DNA of 17,926 bases, taken from the NCBI GenBank assembly GCA_025966435.1, contig JAICRQ010000019.1, positions 1 through 17,926 of the forward strand, read 5' to 3'. This document shows positions 9,086-17,926 of this stretch, one piece after another. The DNA is from Anaerolineales bacterium (GTDB lineage Bacteria; Chloroflexota; Anaerolineae; Anaerolineales; Villigracilaceae). The notes under the pieces were generated by a model, which saw only the letters and a list, made by a program, of their open reading frames with translations, ran no database searches and was not told the origin of the DNA. A program made the translations under genes and the position numbers. Each line of letters begins with the position of its first letter. Position 1 is the stretch's first letter.

Positions 9086-10402
9086 ATGATTAACAAACTT
9101 CGCTCATTTTTTACCCCCCCTGTCTTTGAGGATGAAGAGAAGACGCGTATCGCCGCGATCTTAAACGTGATTCTATACTCACTCATCCTACTATTGGTTC
9201 TGTTAGATCTGTCACTTGTATCCAGCAGCCTGTTCTCCGACCAGGCTGCGCCAGACCATTTCGTTTTTGTATTCGCCAGCGCAATCTTTGCAGGCTTGAT
9301 TATTTTGATGCGCCTGGGTTTTGTCAAGCAGGTCAGCTTGGTGCTCTCATTTGTAATTTCAGGAGTGATCACATTTTCCCTGTATCGCTCGGAGGATGGA
9401 ATGCTGTTATCTGTGGGCACAACAGGCTATTTCATTGCTGTGATTGTCGCCGGCTTGCTCTCCGGAGGTTGGTCTGCGTTACTTATTGCTCTGTTCAATG
9501 TATTGTCTCTTGGCACGCTAAATAGCTGGGCAAACCAGGGAACCATCTCTAGCCAGCCATTGCCTGAAAATTCACTGCTTACTCTCGGAGCGCTTTTTGC
9601 CTTATCGGCTTTGTTACTGGGTCTGGCGTTTCGTAGTATCCGCGAAGCGCTGGAAAAGGCGCGTCAGAACGAACTGGCGCACCTTAAAGCCAATCAGGAA
9701 CTAATCGAATTTCAAGCCACACTTGAACAACGTGTGGCCGATCGTACGAAAGCGCTGGCGACCTCCACAGAGGTGAGCCGTCGTTTGTCTACGATTCTGG
9801 ATCAAAAGCAGTTGGTGAACGAGGTGGTGGAACAGGTTCAATCTGCTTTCCATTACTATCATGCTCATATCTATCTGTTGGATGAATATGGCGAAGGGCT
9901 GATCATGGCAGGCGGCACCGGGGAAGCCGGACAAACCATGCTGGCGAACGGTCACAAGATCCCCACAGGTAAAGGTCTCGTAGGACGTGCTGCGGATACA
10001 AACATCGTTGTTCTGGTATCTGACACTTCATCCAGCCCGGATTGGCTGCCCAACCCGCTATTGCCTGAGACTAAATCGGAAGTCGCTGTGCCGATTTCAC
10101 TCGGGGATGAAGTGCTGGGTGTTTTGGATGTACAGCATAACGTGGCTGGCGAATTAAGCCAGGATGATGCTGACCTATTGCTATCTATTGCGAACCAGGT
10201 CGCTATCGCATTGCGGAACGCGCGTTCTTATACAGAAGTGCAGGCTCGGGCGGAGCGCGAAGCACTGATCGCTTCCATCGGTCAGAAGATCCAGAGCACA
10301 TCTACGGTGGAAAGCGCCTTGCAGGTTGCCATCCGTGAAGTGGGGCGCGCCGTCGGACAGGAAACCTTTGTACGCTTATACACGCAGCAGAGTGGAAAAT
10401 AA
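9086..10402 (+). CDS. Six-TM membrane GAF protein without output domain (paralogue 1)
   Basis: This 438-residue protein opens with a short amphipathic lead ([19 protein letters not shown]), then about six membrane segments (residues about 22-190), and a coiled linker (about 190-225) with [21 protein letters not shown] complete GAF domain (about 235-385) follows, with [40 protein letters not shown] and VLGVLDVQ. It ends in a helical tail ([19 protein letters not shown]). No kinase, cyclase, GGDEF or receiver domain follows, so it may be an accessory sensor that works through a partner, plausibly the kinase at 11759. The ATG at 9086 has AAGGAA (9075-9080) 5 nt upstream. The next gene is a same-length paralogue beginning 12 bp after its stop. 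The signal sensed is unknown. Confidence 0.85.
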
Positions 10403-10408
10403 GTGAGG
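10403..10408 (+). promoter_or_regulatory. Shine-Dalgarno deciding the start of paralogue 2
   Basis: GTGAGG (10403-10408) lies directly after the preceding stop. It could be read as a GTG start, but it works better as a ribosome-binding site 6 nt before ATG 10415, which also makes the two paralogues equal in length and aligned from the first residue. Confidence 0.6.
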
Positions 10409-10414
10409 CTCAAA

Positions 10415-11731
10415 ATGTTGGAAAGAATTCGAAAACTTGTCGCTCCCCCTGTTTTTGAGAACGACGACAAAACACGCGAAGCAGCCTTATTGAACACAAT
10501 CTTGTGGTCTCAATTGGGTGTTTTAGCAGCCATCAATATACTGTTTGGCGCACTAATCCTCAGCGGTGTAGAAACTCCGCCAGATATGGCCATCAGTTTC
10601 ATTGCCGTTGCGATGTTCGCTGGAATGCTCGTAATGGTCCGTAAGGGTTTTGTTCGAGGCATTAGTTATGTACTTGCCTTCTCGATTACCGGGATCATTA
10701 TTTATTCTATTGCACAATCACCCACCGTTAACCCTTCCACGTTGAGTGGCTTACTGATCCCTGTGATGATGGCAGGCCTTTTCGCAGGTGGTCGTGGCAC
10801 AATTGTTGTAACCGCTGTAAACATACTCGCCTTGTCCAGCCTTGGATATTTCTATGAACAGGGCTGGGTAGTGTCGCCGCCGCTGGCAACTACTGATTTG
10901 ATCTCATTCGGAGCCATATCCACCACATCGGCGTTTCTCTTGGCACTGGCATCCCGGGGTATTCAGGATGCACTCGCGCGCGCGCGGCGCAACCAGCAGG
11001 AGCTCTCTGCATTCGCTCAATCGCTGGAACAACGCGTCGCAGACCGCACCAAAGCCTTAGCTACCTCCACGGAAGTGAGCCGCCGGCTCTCAACCATTTT
11101 GGATGAGAAGCAGTTGGTGAAGGAAGTCGTGGAGCAGGTGCAATCAGCCTTCAATTATTATCATGCTCATATTTATTTGCTTGATGAAGTGCGCGGCGAA
11201 CTACTAATGGCTGGTGGTACCGGAGAGGCAGGGCAGACTATGCTGGCACGGGGTCACAAGATCGCCGTAGGTAAAGGCCTGGTGGGACGCGCCGCCGAAA
11301 CGAATGGGCCTGTGTTGGTGCCCGACACTTTATCCAATTCAGATTGGATCCCTAACCCACTCCTGCCTGAGACCAAGTCGGAAGCTGCAATCCCGATCTC
11401 CATAGGCGCGCAGGTGCTGGGTGTCTTGGATGTACAGCACAATGTCACGGCTGGATTAAGTCAGGATGATGCAGACTTACTGCTATCCATAGCCAACCAG
11501 GTAGCCTTCGCGGTACGAAATGCTCGTTTATATACGGAAGCAGAGCGCCGCGCAGAACGTGAAAGCCTGATTTCCGCAATCGGTCAGAAAATTCAGAATA
11601 CATCCACGATAGAGAACGCATTGCAAGTTGCTGCCCGGGAATTGGGAAGCGCCCTCGGCACGCGCGACACTCGAGTAGTTTTGAAAGCTGGTACCTCGCC
11701 CAACAGTGGAACGCATAAATCGCCTCGATAA
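10415..11731 (+). CDS. Six-TM membrane GAF protein without output domain (paralogue 2)
   Basis: This 438-residue tandem paralogue of the preceding gene has the same architecture throughout. It has a PPVFEN lead matching PPVFED, about six membrane segments with diverged sequence, the coiled linker, and one GAF domain. From the linker [20 protein letters not shown] onward the two proteins are identical over long runs, while many third codon positions differ, which implies an old duplication kept by selection. Residues diverge mainly in the membrane part and in the GAF pocket loop ([10 protein letters not shown] against [10 protein letters not shown]), so ligand or partner preference may differ. 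It has no output domain. Start ATG 10415 is used (see the ribosome-binding site entry); GTG 10403 would add 4 residues. The kinase gene follows after 27 bp, consistent with an operon. Confidence 0.85.
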
Positions 11732-11758: not shown

Positions 11759-14700
11759 ATGGCAAAGGCACAAACACCTCAGGATCATGAAGATGATGCC
11801 ATGAAAGATAAGATTCGAGGCAAATTCGAGAAGGTGTTCTCAAGTGAGGAGCCTCCTACGTATGCGAGCATACGCGAAGTGGAGGCAATGAAGAGTCGCA
11901 TCCAGGAGCTGGAAGAGAATCTTAGGCAGGAAGAAACAAAGGTTGCTCTAGCTGAAAGAGAGAAGTCTCAAAAGAGTGTTTACACCGTTCCATCGAAATC
12001 TTCTGCGCACAATGCTGCCAACCCTTCTAATTCCAGGGGGTGGTTTGCCAGGTTCTGGAGTTCGTTAACGGAACCACATTCAAGTATCACGGGAACCCGT
12101 GAACGAAATTCCGCGCGTCTTGCTGCGTCCTTCTTGTTTATTATCCTGCTACTGGAGCTTACAGGAGCGTTTGCTCGCGTTCCCCGTATTGGTCTGATCA
12201 GTGCATTGTCCGGGCAGATGATTTCAATCATCCCTACGCTGCTGGCTTATGTTCTCTCTCGGACAAGCTGGTACCGTGGGGCGATTTTCCTCTTCTCATT
12301 TTTCTTTGGTTCTCTAGCATATGTCACGATGGTCAGAAATGGGTCTGGTGCAGATATCAGCACGCTGATATTGGTATATGTGCCTCTCAGCCTGATCGTA
12401 GCCAGTACATTCCTTTCCTCGTGGGCTGTATTATTACTGGTTGGGCTAAACTTAGGAGCATTTTTCCTCACCACCAAGTTTGGCATTCAATACACCCCAG
12501 AAAATTTTGGCGCGCAGTCTGGCATTGTTATTACCATTGGAATGGTATTGATTTTGCTAGCCAACTTTCGCAAACGCAATGAACAGCAAACACTGCAGGA
12601 AATCAAAAACGTCAACGAAGAATTACAGCTGGCAAACACTGAATTGATAACGAGCCGGGAACAGCTGGAACAACGTGTTGCAGAACGCACACATGACCTC
12701 GAACTGGCGGCAGAAGTGGGACGTTATGTCTCTGAAAAAATAGGCGATCTAACCGGGATGCTTTCGCAATCGGTCGAGTTGATTCGCGCGAAATATAACC
12801 TTTATTACACACAGCTCTACCTGGTGGACACATCCGGACGTAGCCTGATCCTCCGCGCTGGCACGGGTGAAGTTGGCGCACAGTTATTGCGCCGTGGTCA
12901 TCGCCTCGAAATTTCATCTTCATCCTTGAACGGACGCGCGGCTTCCGGTCGCCAACCTATTCTGGTAGTAGATACCCAGGAGAGCGAATACTTTCTACCC
13001 AACCCTTTATTGCCGCTTACGCGTTCCGAATTAGCTGTCCCTTTGATCGTCAACGAGAAAGTGGTGGGTGTTTTGGACATGCAGAGTGATCACCCTGGCA
13101 CGTTCAAGGATACAAACCTGCCAGCCTTCGAAGCACTGGCTGGTCAGCTATCCATCGCGATTCAAAACGCATCCCTGTTTGCTGAAGCAGAAGTAGCTCG
13201 TGCCGAGGTAGAAGCGCGAACACAGCGGCAGACACAGGCAGGCTGGCAGGAGTTGCTCAATGCCGTCGAGCGTGGAGAAACAGTCGGCTATACTTTCGAT
13301 CAGAAGAATGTCTATTCGGTCGCTCCCGATTCCCCTCTCCAAGATGAACCAGCGCTCAGCATCCCCATCTCAATCACCGGCGCGGAGGTGGGTGTCATTG
13401 AGCTCGATGACGAAACGGACCGAGTTTGGTCCCCCACCGAAGCCGAAATCGCCCGGGCAACTGCAAGCGTTCTCGGGCAACACATCGACAACCTGCGCCT
13501 GCTGGCACAAGCAGAAGAATATCGTTCAAAAGCCGAGCAGGCAGCTCGCCGGTTAACTCGAGAAGGCTGGGAAGCTTTCCTTAAGACTCGCAAAGAATTA
13601 GAAAGCGGGTACCTGTATGACCTCAATCAGGTACGGTCGCTGACCGAAGATCATAATGGCAGTCATCCCGTTGTTGCGCAGCCAATCGTGGTCCAAACCG
13701 AAACCATGGGAGAACTAGCGGTAGTATCAGAAGCCGAAACGAGCCAGGAGACTGCAGAAATCATAGCGACGGTGGCAGCTCAGTTAAGTGACCACATCGA
13801 AAATCTGAGACTGCTCGAACAAACACAGGAGCGCTCCCTGGAACTCGAGGAGACAGAAACTTTCCTTAACTCAGTCATTGAGAGTCTGCCGAACATGCTC
13901 TTTGTAAAAGATGCGGAAGAGCTGCGCTTTGTACGGTGGAACAAGGCAGCGGAAGAAATCGTTGGCTTCTCGCAAGAACAGATGCTTGGTAAAAACGACT
14001 ATGACTTCTTCCCGAAAGAAGAGGCAGATTTCTTTACCTCGAAGGATCGACAGGTGTTGACAGAAGGAAAATCGATTGATATCGCGGAGGAAACGCTTGT
14101 CACACCCCACCGCGGTGCGCGATTAATGCACACCCGCAAGGCTCCTGTATACGGACTGGATGGCAAACCAAAATATTTGCTGGGGGTTGCCGAAGATATC
14201 ACCGAGCAGAAGAAAGCGGAAGCAGCCCTCGCACGCCGTGCAACAGAATTGGCAACAGTGGCACAAGTGAACGCAACGGCGTCGACAGTGCTCGACCCCG
14301 ATAAACTTCTGCAGGCTGTGGTCGATCTCACCAGGGAACGCTTCCAACTCTATCATGCTCACATCTATCTGACGAACGAATCGTGGAATACATTGCTTCT
14401 TGCAGCAGGAGCTGGCGAGGTCGGACGGCAAATGGTGTCTGACGGCTGGAACATCCCTATAGATCACGAACAGTCCATTGTGGCAAGAGCTGCCCGTAGT
14501 AAGCAGTCTGTGATTGCCAATGATTTAGTTCGCGATGCAAATTCCTCATTCCTGTCTCATCAGCTTCTGCCAGATACCCGATCGGAAATGGCGATTCCAA
14601 TGATCGTCGGTGATAGGGTACTGGGTGTGTTTGACGTGCAGTCAGATACGGTCAACTATTTTTCAGAAGAAGATGCCAACATTTTCTTAACTCTGGCTAC

Positions 14701-15508
14701 ACAGACCGCCATCGCTCTGCAAAATGCTCGCCTTTATGTAGAACAAGCGGCAACTCTTACACAGTTGCGCGAACTCGACAAATTGAAATCGTCCTTCCTC
14801 GCGAACATGTCTCATGAGCTGCGCACGCCGCTGAACTCGATCCTCGGCTTTACCGATGTGATGCTCGAAGGGTTGGATGGCGAACTCACTGAGTATATGA
14901 ACAACGATCTGCGCCTTGTCCAGAAAAACGGGCAACATCTCCTGCATCTCATCAACGATGTGCTGGATATGGCAAAGATCGAATCCGGACGCATGAACCT
15001 GCATCCCGAAACGTTCAGAGTCCATACCGTACTGGAAGAGGTCACTAGCATCACATCTACACTGGCTAATGAAAAGAACCTCTCGCTCGTGATCGACAAG
15101 GACTCCAATCAGGACATCGAAATCTATGCCGACAATACACGCCTGCGCCAGGTGATGATCAATCTCGTGAATAACTCAATCAAATTTACAGAAAAGGGTG
15201 AGATCAGCCTGTCTGTCAAATCAATCGACGGTGGACGCGTCCAAGTCACTGTGAAAGACACCGGTATCGGTATCCCGCCTGATAAACTTGACGCTATCTT
15301 CCAGGAGTTCACACAGGTAGATACATCCACCACACGTAAGGCCGGCGGAACAGGCCTGGGCTTACCCATCAGCCGCCGGTTGGTCGAAATGCACGGCGGG
15401 CGCTTGATGGCCTTCAGCACAGGGATCGAAGGCGAAGGCTCTACTTTCTTCGTAGAATTGCCGGTCGAAGCGCGCATCTCTGAAGTGATCGAAAAGCAGG
15501 AACGGTAA
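11759..15508 (+). CDS. Large membrane sensor histidine kinase, TM-GAF-GAF-like x2-PAS-GAF-HisKA-HATPase
   Basis: This is a 1249-residue kinase. A soluble N-terminal coiled coil (about 40-75) precedes about six membrane segments (about 117-272). Next are a coiled linker with EQRVAERTHDLE, GAF 1 (about 311-475; NPLLPLTRSELAVPLIVN), and two shortened GAF-like repeats (about 490-595 and 599-695) that share a GW start and end in HI(D/E)NLRLL. PAS (about 700-820; SVIESLPNMLFVKDAEELRF), GAF 2 (about 830-990; QLLPDTRSEMAIPMIVG), HisKA with H1019 in NMSHELRTPLNSILGFTDVM, and HATPase (NLVNNSIKFTEKG, KDTGIGIPPDKL, GGTGLGLPIS) follow. The front end resembles the two preceding sensor proteins, so the three may form heteromeric complexes. 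It lacks its own receiver, and three receivers follow, starting 1 nt after its stop. The ATG has AAGGAG 8 nt upstream. Confidence 0.93.
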   Translation: MAKAQTPQDHEDDAMKDKIRGKFEKVFSSEEPPTYASIREVEAMKSRIQELEENLRQEETKVALAEREKSQKSVYTVPSKSSAHNAANPSNSRGWFARFWSSLTEPHSSITGTRERNSARLAASFLFIILLLELTGAFARVPRIGLISALSGQMISIIPTLLAYVLSRTSWYRGAIFLFSFFFGSLAYVTMVRNGSGADISTLILVYVPLSLIVASTFLSSWAVLLLVGLNLGAFFLTTKFGIQYTPENFGAQSGIVITIGMVLILLANFRKRNEQQTLQEIKNVNEELQLANTELITSREQLEQRVAERTHDLELAAEVGRYVSEKIGDLTGMLSQSVELIRAKYNLYYTQLYLVDTSGRSLILRAGTGEVGAQLLRRGHRLEISSSSLNGRAASGRQPILVVDTQESEYFLPNPLLPLTRSELAVPLIVNEKVVGVLDMQSDHPGTFKDTNLPAFEALAGQLSIAIQNASLFAEAEVARAEVEARTQRQTQAGWQELLNAVERGETVGYTFDQKNVYSVAPDSPLQDEPALSIPISITGAEVGVIELDDETDRVWSPTEAEIARATASVLGQHIDNLRLLAQAEEYRSKAEQAARRLTREGWEAFLKTRKELESGYLYDLNQVRSLTEDHNGSHPVVAQPIVVQTETMGELAVVSEAETSQETAEIIATVAAQLSDHIENLRLLEQTQERSLELEETETFLNSVIESLPNMLFVKDAEELRFVRWNKAAEEIVGFSQEQMLGKNDYDFFPKEEADFFTSKDRQVLTEGKSIDIAEETLVTPHRGARLMHTRKAPVYGLDGKPKYLLGVAEDITEQKKAEAALARRATELATVAQVNATASTVLDPDKLLQAVVDLTRERFQLYHAHIYLTNESWNTLLLAAGAGEVGRQMVSDGWNIPIDHEQSIVARAARSKQSVIANDLVRDANSSFLSHQLLPDTRSEMAIPMIVGDRVLGVFDVQSDTVNYFSEEDANIFLTLATQTAIALQNARLYVEQAATLTQLRELDKLKSSFLANMSHELRTPLNSILGFTDVMLEGLDGELTEYMNNDLRLVQKNGQHLLHLINDVLDMAKIESGRMNLHPETFRVHTVLEEVTSITSTLANEKNLSLVIDKDSNQDIEIYADNTRLRQVMINLVNNSIKFTEKGEISLSVKSIDGGRVQVTVKDTGIGIPPDKLDAIFQEFTQVDTSTTRKAGGTGLGLPISRRLVEMHGGRLMAFSTGIEGEGSTFFVELPVEARISEVIEKQER

Positions 15509-15509
15509 A

Positions 15510-17168
15510 ATGGCAACCCCCAAGCATCTGGAATGCAATCTCTGCGGACACCAACAGCCTTATGAGCCTTTCGTTCCAGCCGTGTGCAAAAATTGCGAAT
15601 CGCAATGGCTGGAAGCGCGCTATGACTACGATGCGTTCAAACGCGAAGTCCTGCGCGGACTTCCAAATCGCCCATCCAACATGTGGCGTTATCAGGATGT
15701 GCTGCCGCTGAACGATCCTGCCGCTCTGGATCTTTACCCTGCCGGCGGCACTCCGCTCTGGCTATCACAAAGATTTGCTCCCTTGCTTGGGCATACCTCT
15801 GTTTACATCAAAGACGAACGCTACGGGCCCACTTCCTCTTTTAAAGATCGCCAGGCAGCCGGGGCAGTCGCAGCCATGCTCGAACGCGGCGTGAAGGAAG
15901 CCGTGATTGCCTCAACAGGCAATGCCGCGGTCGCCTACGCCGCGGCGTGTGCGCGAGCGGGAATCAAGCTCTGGGTGTTCATGACGAGCCTCGTGCCGCA
16001 GGAAAAATTGCGTGAAGCGGCTTTGTTCGGTGCCGAGGTGATTCGCGTCAGCGGCAACTACGACCAGACAAAACAGATCGCCTCTCAGTTTGCACAGCGC
16101 CGCCAGCTTCTGCTTGATCGCGGCGCGACCTCCATCCCTGCACGCGAATCGATGAAGACCATCGCCTATGAAATCGTGGAACAGCTTGGCTGGCACGCGC
16201 CAGACTGGTATATCCAGGCTGTCAGTGGCGGATTGGGACCACTCGGGGTGTATCAGGGCTTCAAAGAATTATTCAATATGGGGTTGATCCATCGAATTCC
16301 TAAGCTGGCGATCATCCAGGCAGCGGGATGTGCGCCAATGGTCAACGCTTTCAAAGCCGGCAAAGATGTCGCTGAGGCTGTAATTCCGGAAACAAGCATT
16401 ATTATTTTATCGACGGGCGATCCCGGTAAAGCCTATACGTATTTATGGAATCTCACGCAGCAGTTTGGCGGTACGATGGAGTCGGTGACGGATGCCGAGG
16501 CATTCGCAGCGATGCGGTCCCTGGCGAAAACGGAAGGGATGGCTGTTGAACCGGCAACCGCCGTCGCCTTCGCGGGACTCGAGAAGTTGATCCGCAATGG
16601 CACAATCCAATCCGAGGAAAGAGTTGTCGTCAATTGTACGGGGCACACATTCCCCGTCGAAAAACATGTGCTTGGCGATCAATGGGCAGTGGATGTACAC
16701 TTAAGCAAAGATCAATCTCCTGCGCCTCGCGAAGGCTTGCAGGCTGCCTTGGAACACCTGGACGAAAAGACAACCACGGTTTTATTGATTGATGATAACC
16801 CGGACGATGCTCTGCTCATCCGGCGTTTGCTCGAAGGACGCAAAGCCTATCGGGTCTATCATGCCAAGGATGGCTGGGAGGGACTCTCGATGGCGCGGCA
16901 GAAATTACCCGACCTCATCGTTTCGGATCTCACTATGCCCGGAATCGACGGTTTCGGGCTTGTGGAAGAACTGAAACTGGATCCGCGCACAAAGGATATC
17001 CCGGTCGTAGTCGTTAGCGCGAAGGATATTACCTGGGAAGAACGAAAGAGATTGAACGGTCACATTCAAGCTGTCTATCAGAAGGGATCGCTATCCACGA
17101 AAAAGTTTGTGGACCAGGTGATCACCGTGATCGAAGAATATAATGAACCGCAGGGAGGGCAGATATGA
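15510..17168 (+). CDS. Threonine synthase-like PLP enzyme fused to a C-terminal receiver domain
   Basis: This is a 552-residue fusion. Residues about 1-395 form a fold-type II PLP enzyme of the threonine synthase family. They comprise an N-terminal zinc ribbon (C9/C12 and C26/C29), GGTPLW, the PLP lysine K112 in SSFKDRQ, STGNAAVAYAAACARAG, a glycine-rich SGGLGPLG, and a closing NCTGHTFPVEKH. Threonine synthase makes threonine from O-phosphohomoserine; a cysteate-synthase-like relative is possible, and substrate cannot be read from sequence. After a linker of about 30 residues, residues about 423-545 form a receiver with D428/D429, acceptor D473 (VSDLTMPGIDG) and a conserved K in VYQKG. The frame is continuous with no internal stop. 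It starts 1 nt after the kinase stop (CAGGAA 7 nt before ATG) and overlaps the next receiver by 4 bp, so it belongs to the phosphorelay. Phospho-control of the enzyme is inferred. Confidence 0.9.
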   Translation: MATPKHLECNLCGHQQPYEPFVPAVCKNCESQWLEARYDYDAFKREVLRGLPNRPSNMWRYQDVLPLNDPAALDLYPAGGTPLWLSQRFAPLLGHTSVYIKDERYGPTSSFKDRQAAGAVAAMLERGVKEAVIASTGNAAVAYAAACARAGIKLWVFMTSLVPQEKLREAALFGAEVIRVSGNYDQTKQIASQFAQRRQLLLDRGATSIPARESMKTIAYEIVEQLGWHAPDWYIQAVSGGLGPLGVYQGFKELFNMGLIHRIPKLAIIQAAGCAPMVNAFKAGKDVAEAVIPETSIIILSTGDPGKAYTYLWNLTQQFGGTMESVTDAEAFAAMRSLAKTEGMAVEPATAVAFAGLEKLIRNGTIQSEERVVVNCTGHTFPVEKHVLGDQWAVDVHLSKDQSPAPREGLQAALEHLDEKTTTVLLIDDNPDDALLIRRLLEGRKAYRVYHAKDGWEGLSMARQKLPDLIVSDLTMPGIDGFGLVEELKLDPRTKDIPVVVVSAKDITWEERKRLNGHIQAVYQKGSLSTKKFVDQVITVIEEYNEPQGGQI

Positions 17169-17539
17169 CGCCGACTATCCTCTATATCGAGGATCACCCG
17201 GATAACATGACGCTCGTCCGACGAATTCTCTACGCGGAAAATTACACGTTGATCGAAGCCAAGACTGGCTTTCAAGGACTCTGGATCGCGGAAAACCAGG
17301 ATATAGATATGATCCTGCTGGACATCAACCTCCCTGACATTGACGGGTATGAGGTTGCCCGACGACTGCGCACCAGCAAAAAGACCAAACTGGCTCATAT
17401 TCCGATCGTCGCTGTGACTGCCAATGCTATGAGAGGTGACGATCGAAAAATCCTGGATGCGGGCGCAGATATTTATATATCCAAGCCCATTAATATCCAG
17501 GAGTTATTGCAGACAGTCGCAGGTTTGATTACTAAGTAA
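17165..17539 (+). CDS. Single-domain response regulator, DivK-like
   Basis: This is a 124-residue receiver with nothing attached. It has an acidic pocket E9/D10 (LYIEDHPDNM), acceptor D53 in ILLDINLPDIDG, T in VAVTANAM, and K in YISKPINI. The combination of the 'PDNM', 'TANAMRGD' and 'YISKPI' signatures resembles the DivK/PleD receiver group, whose members act by protein-protein contact or as phosphate shuttles rather than by binding DNA. Its ATG overlaps the stop of the enzyme-receiver fusion (ATGA), so the two are translationally coupled. Likely donors are the kinase at 11759 or the hybrid kinase at 6611. Confidence 0.93.
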   Translation: MTPTILYIEDHPDNMTLVRRILYAENYTLIEAKTGFQGLWIAENQDIDMILLDINLPDIDGYEVARRLRTSKKTKLAHIPIVAVTANAMRGDDRKILDAGADIYISKPINIQELLQTVAGLITK

Positions 17540-17556: not shown

Positions 17557-17926
17557 ATGACATACAACATTTTATATATTGAGGATAATCCAGACAACAT
17601 GATGCTGGTTCAGCGCGCACTGGAAGCCCGCGGCTATCGTCTTTTGAAAGCCATGAAGGGCATCGATGGCGTTGCAACCGCGGAAAGCGAACATGTGGAT
17701 CTCATCTTATTGGATATCAACCTTCCCGATATTGACGGATACGAGGTAGCGCGCCGTTTGCGCTCCAGCACCAAGCACGAACTGGCGCGGGTTCCGATCA
17801 TTGCGGTCACTGCGAATGCTCTGAAGGGGGATGCCGAAAAGGCCCTGGAGGCTGGCTGCGATGTTTACATGTCGAAACCTATCAATATCCGGGAACTATG
17901 GGCGCGAGTGGAAGCATTCGTTCCCA
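17557..17926 (+). CDS. Second DivK-like response regulator (cut by window edge)
   Basis: The 123 residues visible make an essentially complete receiver: E9/D10 (LYIEDNPDNM), acceptor D53 in ILLDINLPDIDG, VTANALKGD, and K in YMSKPINI. No stop is reached before the edge, so it may be a single-domain protein like its neighbour or continue into an output domain. It is clearly a tandem duplicate of the preceding gene, with the central block LLDINLPDIDGYEVARRLR identical. ATG 17557 has AAGAGG (17542-17547) 9 nt upstream, and the spacer from the previous stop is 17 bp. Confidence 0.9.
   Translation, partial: MTYNILYIEDNPDNMMLVQRALEARGYRLLKAMKGIDGVATAESEHVDLILLDINLPDIDGYEVARRLRSSTKHELARVPIIAVTANALKGDAEKALEAGCDVYMSKPINIRELWARVEAFVP

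Follow-up and report, generated by a model that had tools for sequence, protein, structure and literature searches.

A single gene in the window, that is, the whole stretch of 17,926 nucleotides analyzed here (the entire contig C591 of an assembly that comprises 635 contigs and is 80% complete), joins a PLP enzyme domain of fold type II (PALP) to a C-terminal receiver (REC) domain (Table 1). This fusion is no chance or assembly error, as its frame recurs in all 80 loci that were kept from a scan of public genomes (the best 80 of 97 relatives), the best segments of which are 65 to 93% identical to the fusion in the window. Our tentatively preferred reading is that its product is a PLP enzyme whose activity is gated by phosphorylation and whose substrate has changed. 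The observations behind this reading are the domain architecture, its conservation, the gene order, the lack of a receiver on the neighboring kinase, the presence of a separate threonine synthase gene (thrC) in the same genome, and the absence from the fusion of a motif shared by threonine synthases.

Architecture of the fusion gene

Both halves were matched by Pfam above the curated cutoffs, with PALP covering residues 78 to 378 (E = 2.4e-70) and Response_reg covering residues 424 to 506 (E = 4.5e-16; a match that spans profile positions 1 to 80 of 111 only). Because K525 is invariant and the structure model contains a strand at residues 521 to 524 and a helix at residues 530 to 545, we took the receiver to be complete. 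The sequence-only reading of this DNA had described one open frame with a full PLP enzyme and a full receiver, located between a large kinase and stand-alone receivers. This description held up: the gene coordinates agree with the placement, and all motifs named earlier were found, including D473 as well as K112 (within SSFKDR), STGN (residues 135 to 138), SGGLG (239 to 243), and CTGH (376 to 379). Several positions of the linker stretch EGLxAALExLD are nearly invariant, and this stretch is predicted to be helical, in a part of the model where confidence is low.

Table 1. Features of the fusion gene and its direct neighbors in the window
Feature	Position	Strand	Remarks
PALP-REC fusion gene	15510..17168	+	552 aa; single ATG frame, no interruption
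Zinc ribbon, N-terminal (predicted)	15534..15596	+	Cys 9, 12, 26, 29
PALP domain, PLP fold type II	15741..16643	+	Residues 78-378; Pfam, structure model, fold matches
K112, Schiff-base lysine by homology	15843..15845	+	Aligns with the SFKDR/SFKDL lysine of solved threonine synthases
Residues 203-217, site of NS-x-N-x-x-R-x-EGQKT in threonine synthases	16116..16160	+	By alignment
Interdomain linker	16695..16769	+	Residues 396-420; low confidence in model
REC domain	16779..17144	+	Residues 424-545; Pfam 424-506, remainder from model
D473, phospho-acceptor position (predicted)	16926..16928	+	Invariant in alignment
GAF/PAS sensor histidine kinase without receiver	11759..15508	+	Predicted phosphodonor
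Stand-alone receiver	17165..17539	+	4-nt overlap with fusion end; close relative in a minority of loci
Stand-alone receiver	17557..17925	+	Cut by contig end; most constant downstream partner

Conservation of both halves

A stop and a separate start between about residues 395 and 423 in related genomes, a pattern named beforehand as speaking against a genuine fusion, was absent: no break of the frame between the halves occurs in any of the 106 aligned ORF rows. These rows are partly dependent (L001 is the window gene, L002 and L009 represent a single gene, and some genomes are doubled), and the sole short one, L009 (483 aa), ends where its DNA stretch ends. With no split among these rows, we ruled out a gene-fusion artifact. 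Among 57 genes from a sample of the phylum, the match crosses one stop in 10, and the open frame there still measures at least 549 aa.

The four zinc ribbon cysteines, C9, C12, C26, and C29, are kept in all 106 rows and in all 66 rows of a nonredundant set (<90% identity). The same 66 rows are invariant at K112 and its neighbors, at S135-T136-G137-N138, S239-G240-G241, and G378-H379-T380, and, in the receiver, at D429, D473, and K525; position 473 is D in 105 of the 105 rows that have a letter there. All fusion rows keep R104, Q115, and the SGG-x-GP loop, while receiver position 503 is S or T and position 428 is D or E in all rows with a letter. The receiver, in other words, has the acidic pocket, acceptor Asp, Thr/Ser, and Lys that are features of response regulators, and catalytic and receiver residues alike are invariant in both of the clades (A and B) described below. 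Invariant positions make up 74 of 335 in the PALP half versus 10 of 125 in the REC half. Between near orthologs, dN/dS was 0.017 to 0.043 for the PALP half (five pairs) and 0.022 to 0.036 for the REC half (three pairs, with one further pair saturated and one unscored); dS exceeded 1.3 in all pairs and was near saturation, so these ratios are rough. As far as such rough values go, purifying selection acts on both halves.

Distribution and origin

Matches at an E value of 1e-70 or better were found in 42 of 400 sampled Chloroflexota genomes. Within the organism's own family, all 25 listed genomes were matched, with no unmatched genome of the same family or genus listed ahead of the more distantly related unmatched ones, and two families outside the class of the window (f24 and f35) were matched as well. 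By bit score, the 57 genes fell into two clades, clade A (the window type, at least 65% identity) and clade B (46 to 53%), which occur together in some genomes, including that of the window, where the clade B gene lies on contig C182. Both clades are mainly found in Anaerolineae, with clade A also present in Herpetosiphon; the kept loci are mostly titled Anaerolineae, Anaerolineales, or Chloroflexi and include four named strains of Herpetosiphon, of which one has a complete genome. The organism names among the matches listed (the best 120 of 6949, 6373, and 6497, respectively, most of them nameless) are those of Chloroflexota or of groups within that phylum.

In a tree of 39 PALP sequences, the 25 fusions grouped as a single clade (100/99), which has a long stem; the tree carries a long-branch warning, which affects the choice of the nearest stand-alone relative. 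A survey of the 400 genomes, in which at most four candidates were scored per genome, showed that all 57 listed PALP genes with at least 50% identity sit in frames no shorter than 549 aa, and that the next listed PALP matches, at 39% identity or less, sit in frames of 360 to 526 aa. Since the fusions form one clade and this sample contains no close stand-alone PALP relative, the sequences would point to a single, old fusion event. A separate search for a stand-alone ancestor used a query length that disfavors full fusions, and 40 proteins without PF00072 were picked by eye from the best 120 matches. P0135, P0146, and P0181 aside, there was no clear stand-alone member of the PALP-half family among those 40, which terminate within the PALP or REC half, carry frameshift-like unrelated tails, or end at about residue 384 to 402, possibly because of contig ends.

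Gene neighborhoods of the two clades

In the window, the kinase gene terminates 1 nt ahead of the fusion ATG. On the basis of this gap and of the overlap at the other end of the gene, we read the kinase, the fusion, and the receiver at 17165 as one operon. A histidine kinase gene adjoins the fusion in each of the 80 clade A loci (again the best 80 of 97 relatives), 77 of which were found by filter and three of which (L019, L071, and L076, where the fusion ORF is extended upstream) were taken from the listing. The gap between the two genes has a median of 2 nt, with 59 of 77 gaps measuring 0 to 30 nt, 8 exceeding 30 nt (up to 135 nt), and 10 being overlaps that are due partly to ORF extension. 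When the last 330 aa (or the contig remainder) of 78 of these kinases (that of the window and those of 77 of the 80 relatives) were scanned, HATPase_c was found in 78 and HisKA in 76, and Response_reg was found in none. Because the clade A kinase thus carries no receiver behind its ATPase domain, the fusion would be its natural first partner.

Farther downstream, a receiver of the 17557 type is present in 78 of the 80 clade A loci (77 by filter, plus L071, in which it sits in a longer ORF), the contigs of L062 and L079 coming to an end. Next, in 33 of the 80 loci, comes a PALP gene that stands alone and shares more than 50% identity with a PRK08197-type gene in the genome of the window; several contigs are too short downstream to tell. 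Its product could conceivably form a heteromer with the fusion. The PRK08197-type gene itself is truncated where contig C360 ends, and this contig may continue the window contig. Some loci without a downstream PALP gene carry one more receiver together with a GNAT acetyltransferase; GNAT was detected in 5 of the 10 neighbor genes scanned (L012, L022, L030, L053, and L081), several of them located after the extra receiver. Just 3′ of the cassette in one locus, L074:12294-13322 encodes a protein that combines a receiver with an adenylate/guanylate cyclase domain. In the window, two similar, adjoining genes at 9086-11731, with hydrophobic N termini and one GAF domain each, lie between two kinases, and Pfam detected no kinase domain in either of them. 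No EamA transporter gene was present among the clade A neighbors examined.

The clade B fusion is preceded by a protein with GAF, HisKA, and HATPase_c domains in 19 of 21 loci, and in 18 of 21 the upstream protein carries a receiver. A ParA-like ATPase gene is also often found upstream. An EamA transporter gene directly follows the fusion in 14 of 20 clade B relatives and is not immediately downstream in the other 6 (16 same-strand neighbors from the 20 loci, plus the one from the genome of the window, were scanned). In that genome, the paralogous clade B fusion lies in C182:1-8463 (L123), preceded by a ParA-like ATPase and a GAF hybrid kinase of 1537 aa. Contigs C182 and C437 probably adjoin, because the fusion on C182 has its 3′ end repeated at the start of C437:1-1577 (L124), where two differences were seen by eye; an EamA gene then follows. 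As for its cargo, the EamA protein had no match to solved structures at an E value of 0.001 and scored 70.4 bits against TIGR00950 (carboxylate/amino acid/amine transporter), far under the cutoff of 230.2, and we therefore assigned none. Finally, no kinase was found next to the fusion in two clade B loci (L136 and L137). The gene before the fusion in these loci, which looks methylthioribose-1-phosphate-isomerase-like, could be a clue to the substrate, hinting at sulfur amino acid salvage.

Comparison of the PALP half with threonine synthases

With its PLP fold type II, lysine loop, and STGN, the fusion has the core features of threonine synthases, which are also its closest sequence and fold matches (the fold matches being taken up by the PALP half and saying nothing on the receiver). 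The named source entries for the fusions, among the matches listed, mostly read "threonine synthase" or "pyridoxal-phosphate dependent enzyme." A motif that we take to bind the phosphate of the substrate, NS-x-N-x-x-R-x-EGQKT, is present in all five aligned solved threonine synthases (1uim, 2d1f, 2zsj, 6cgq, and 1e5x) and in the thrC product of the window's own genome. It is present in 0 of the 106 fusion rows, in each of which the EGQ part is replaced by E-[SA]-[MF]; residues 203 to 217 of the fusion consist of D203-x-G205, a variable stretch, and E213-[SA]-[MF]-K-T. One place from the lost motif arginine, R212 occurs in 81 of 84 clade A rows and 5 of 22 clade B rows, and this residue might act as a stand-in.

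Whether the genome has a second, canonical thrC had been raised as a check by the sequence-only reading, and such a gene was found beside thrB on contig C185, scoring 298.5 bits against TIGR00260 (cutoff, 167.1); thrB scored 257.4 bits (cutoff, 168.25), and a homoserine dehydrogenase gene is also present. With the canonical thrC adjoining thrB, we ruled out a housekeeping threonine synthase role for the fusion. Two fusions were scored against TIGR00260: that of the window passed by 3 bits (170.1), and its clade B paralog reached 150.4. Against PRK08197 (NF006050, a zinc ribbon family labeled "threonine synthase"; cutoff, 303), both remained below the cutoff, at 249.2 and 253.1, respectively. 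The same genome encodes, at C80:4216-5484 (L126), a stand-alone zinc ribbon PALP protein that scores 168.8 against the TIGR00260 cutoff of 167.1 and is without the arginine of the threonine synthase motif.

The earlier proposal of a threonine synthase switched by phosphorylation thus stood in part. A conserved fusion of a receiver to a PLP enzyme, with an adjacent kinase, was confirmed; the identity of a simple threonine synthase is unsupported, because a canonical thrC adjoins thrB and because the fusion is without the shared motif. The other option put forward at the time, an enzyme repurposed for another metabolite, is likewise compatible with the results.

Relation to known systems

Compared to ThrC, the fusion shares the fold, the lysine loop, STGN, and, in several members, the TGH end motif, but it lacks NS-x-N-x-x-R-x-EGQKT, has SGG-x-GP where the thrC product of the same genome has the loop GNAGN, and adds a zinc ribbon and a C-terminal receiver. 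The layout of zinc ribbon plus PALP is shared with PRK08197 (NF006050), but the EPYRxEGKK motif of the downstream neighbor PALPs is missing from the fusion, and the stand-alone matches listed are at most 39% identical to it. Cysteate synthase (CapA2, 9k3c) is 24% identical and consists of a 430- to 435-residue chain without a receiver; against the corresponding family, TIGR03844, the fusion scored 125.7 bits, under the cutoff of 324.9.

Among the receivers described so far, most act on transcription, chemotaxis, or cyclic nucleotides. Section 14 of one review (PMC5847659) acknowledges the attachment of receivers to metabolic enzymes as a theme, and the response regulators treated there share with the fusion both the joining of receiver to enzyme and a lineage-restricted distribution; that section names no PLP enzyme, and the fusion spans the class of the window plus two outside families. 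REC-derived domains on PLP decarboxylases of fold type I (AAT fold) are established according to passages of another paper (PMC8503589). As described in those passages, these decarboxylases likewise combine a PLP enzyme with a receiver-derived domain, but their PLP fold is unrelated and their REC wing is N-terminal, in contrast to the C-terminal receiver of the fusion, which moreover has kept the tested acceptor site residues and has a kinase adjacent to it. In light of what these parts of both sources report, the general statement of the sequence-only reading that receivers normally control DNA binding, cyclases, and the like was too narrow. No description of a receiver-threonine-synthase or receiver-PALP fusion was found in the titles and abstract openings of the papers listed from the open-licence PMC literature (in part the top 15 of 435, 12 of 59, 10 of 396, and 10 of 94).

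Proposed mechanism and alternatives

In the scheme that we favor, phosphotransfer, control of activity, the substrate, and export are inferred, and the receiver is probably phosphorylatable by the neighboring sensor kinase. A signal would be sensed via the GAF/PAS domains of the kinase at 11759-15508, leading to autophosphorylation, and the fusion would receive the phosphate at D473, as would, probably, the stand-alone receivers, which could serve as side branches or sinks or, alternatively, as carriers to other targets. Phosphorylation of D473 would alter the packing of the receiver on the PALP half, or the dimerization of the latter, via the conserved linker, and this change would open or close the PLP active site. 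There, a small substrate that resembles an amino acid but is not O-phosphohomoserine would undergo an elimination or replacement, yielding a metabolite that may serve as output, either through use or through export; for clade B, the neighboring EamA protein would be a candidate exporter. Counting against this scheme are the narrow TIGR00260 pass, the threonine synthase folds, and R212, as well as the lack of an EamA gene directly downstream in 6 of 20 clade B relatives and among the clade A neighbors examined and the lack of an adjacent kinase at L136 and L137.

Several of these counterpoints would fit a second, signal-controlled threonine synthase, converting O-phosphohomoserine into threonine and tuned by phosphorylation beside a constitutive ThrC. 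The 3-bit TIGR00260 margin, the best matches in both sequence and fold, the arginine near the lost one in most clade A rows, and the PRK08197-type PALP gene downstream in 33 of 80 clade A loci speak for it, but we consider it unlikely, given that the shared motif is missing in 106 of 106 rows, that the PRK08197 score stays at 249.2 of the 303 bits needed, that the clade B paralog falls under both cutoffs, and that the canonical thrC adjoins thrB in the same genome. In regulators of the MocR/GabR type, ligands are sensed by domains that resemble aminotransferases. By analogy, the PALP half could be a ligand sensor to which PLP and an amino acid bind and which determines receiver phosphorylation or partner binding, with the C-terminal REC domain as a conceivable effector half; the neighbors in the window are mostly signaling genes, and a conserved lysine would be expected in a PLP-binding sensor, too. 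What makes this rather unlikely is that a wide set of PLP chemistry residues is invariant, beyond the lysine alone, and that transporter, second PALP, and acetyltransferase neighbors point to metabolism.

The REC-derived wing of lysine, ornithine, and arginine decarboxylases has a structural role. It is conceivable, on this analogy, that the receiver of the fusion is mainly a structural or oligomerization module and that phosphorylation is no main switch, a notion consistent with the higher share of invariant positions in the PALP half and with the occurrence, as passages of PMC8503589 report, of a REC-derived domain on a PLP enzyme of unrelated fold. Still, D429, D473, and K525 are kept in 66 of 66 rows, and a kinase without a receiver of its own adjoins the fusion in the clade A loci, which together render a mainly structural receiver distinctly improbable.

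The phosphorylation-gated enzyme with a changed substrate, which we prefer, can also be extended to a two-component system whose PLP enzyme output makes a new, exported signal or stress metabolite derived from an amino acid. We regard this extension as doubtful. Under it, and with the same doubt, the clade B cassette would consist of kinase, switch enzyme, and EamA exporter, and clade A would be a paralogous version beside stand-alone receivers.

Implications

The receiver-enzyme cassette is conserved and duplicated within Chloroflexota, named Herpetosiphon strains included, and is therefore testable. The database label "threonine synthase" on fusion proteins may be wrong. The fusion offers a route to a PLP reaction that is new and linked to the sensing of a signal and, if the extended reading is true, would be a signaling metabolite synthase outside the cyclic nucleotide world. 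Chloroflexota that carry it may switch a metabolic reaction directly on a signal.
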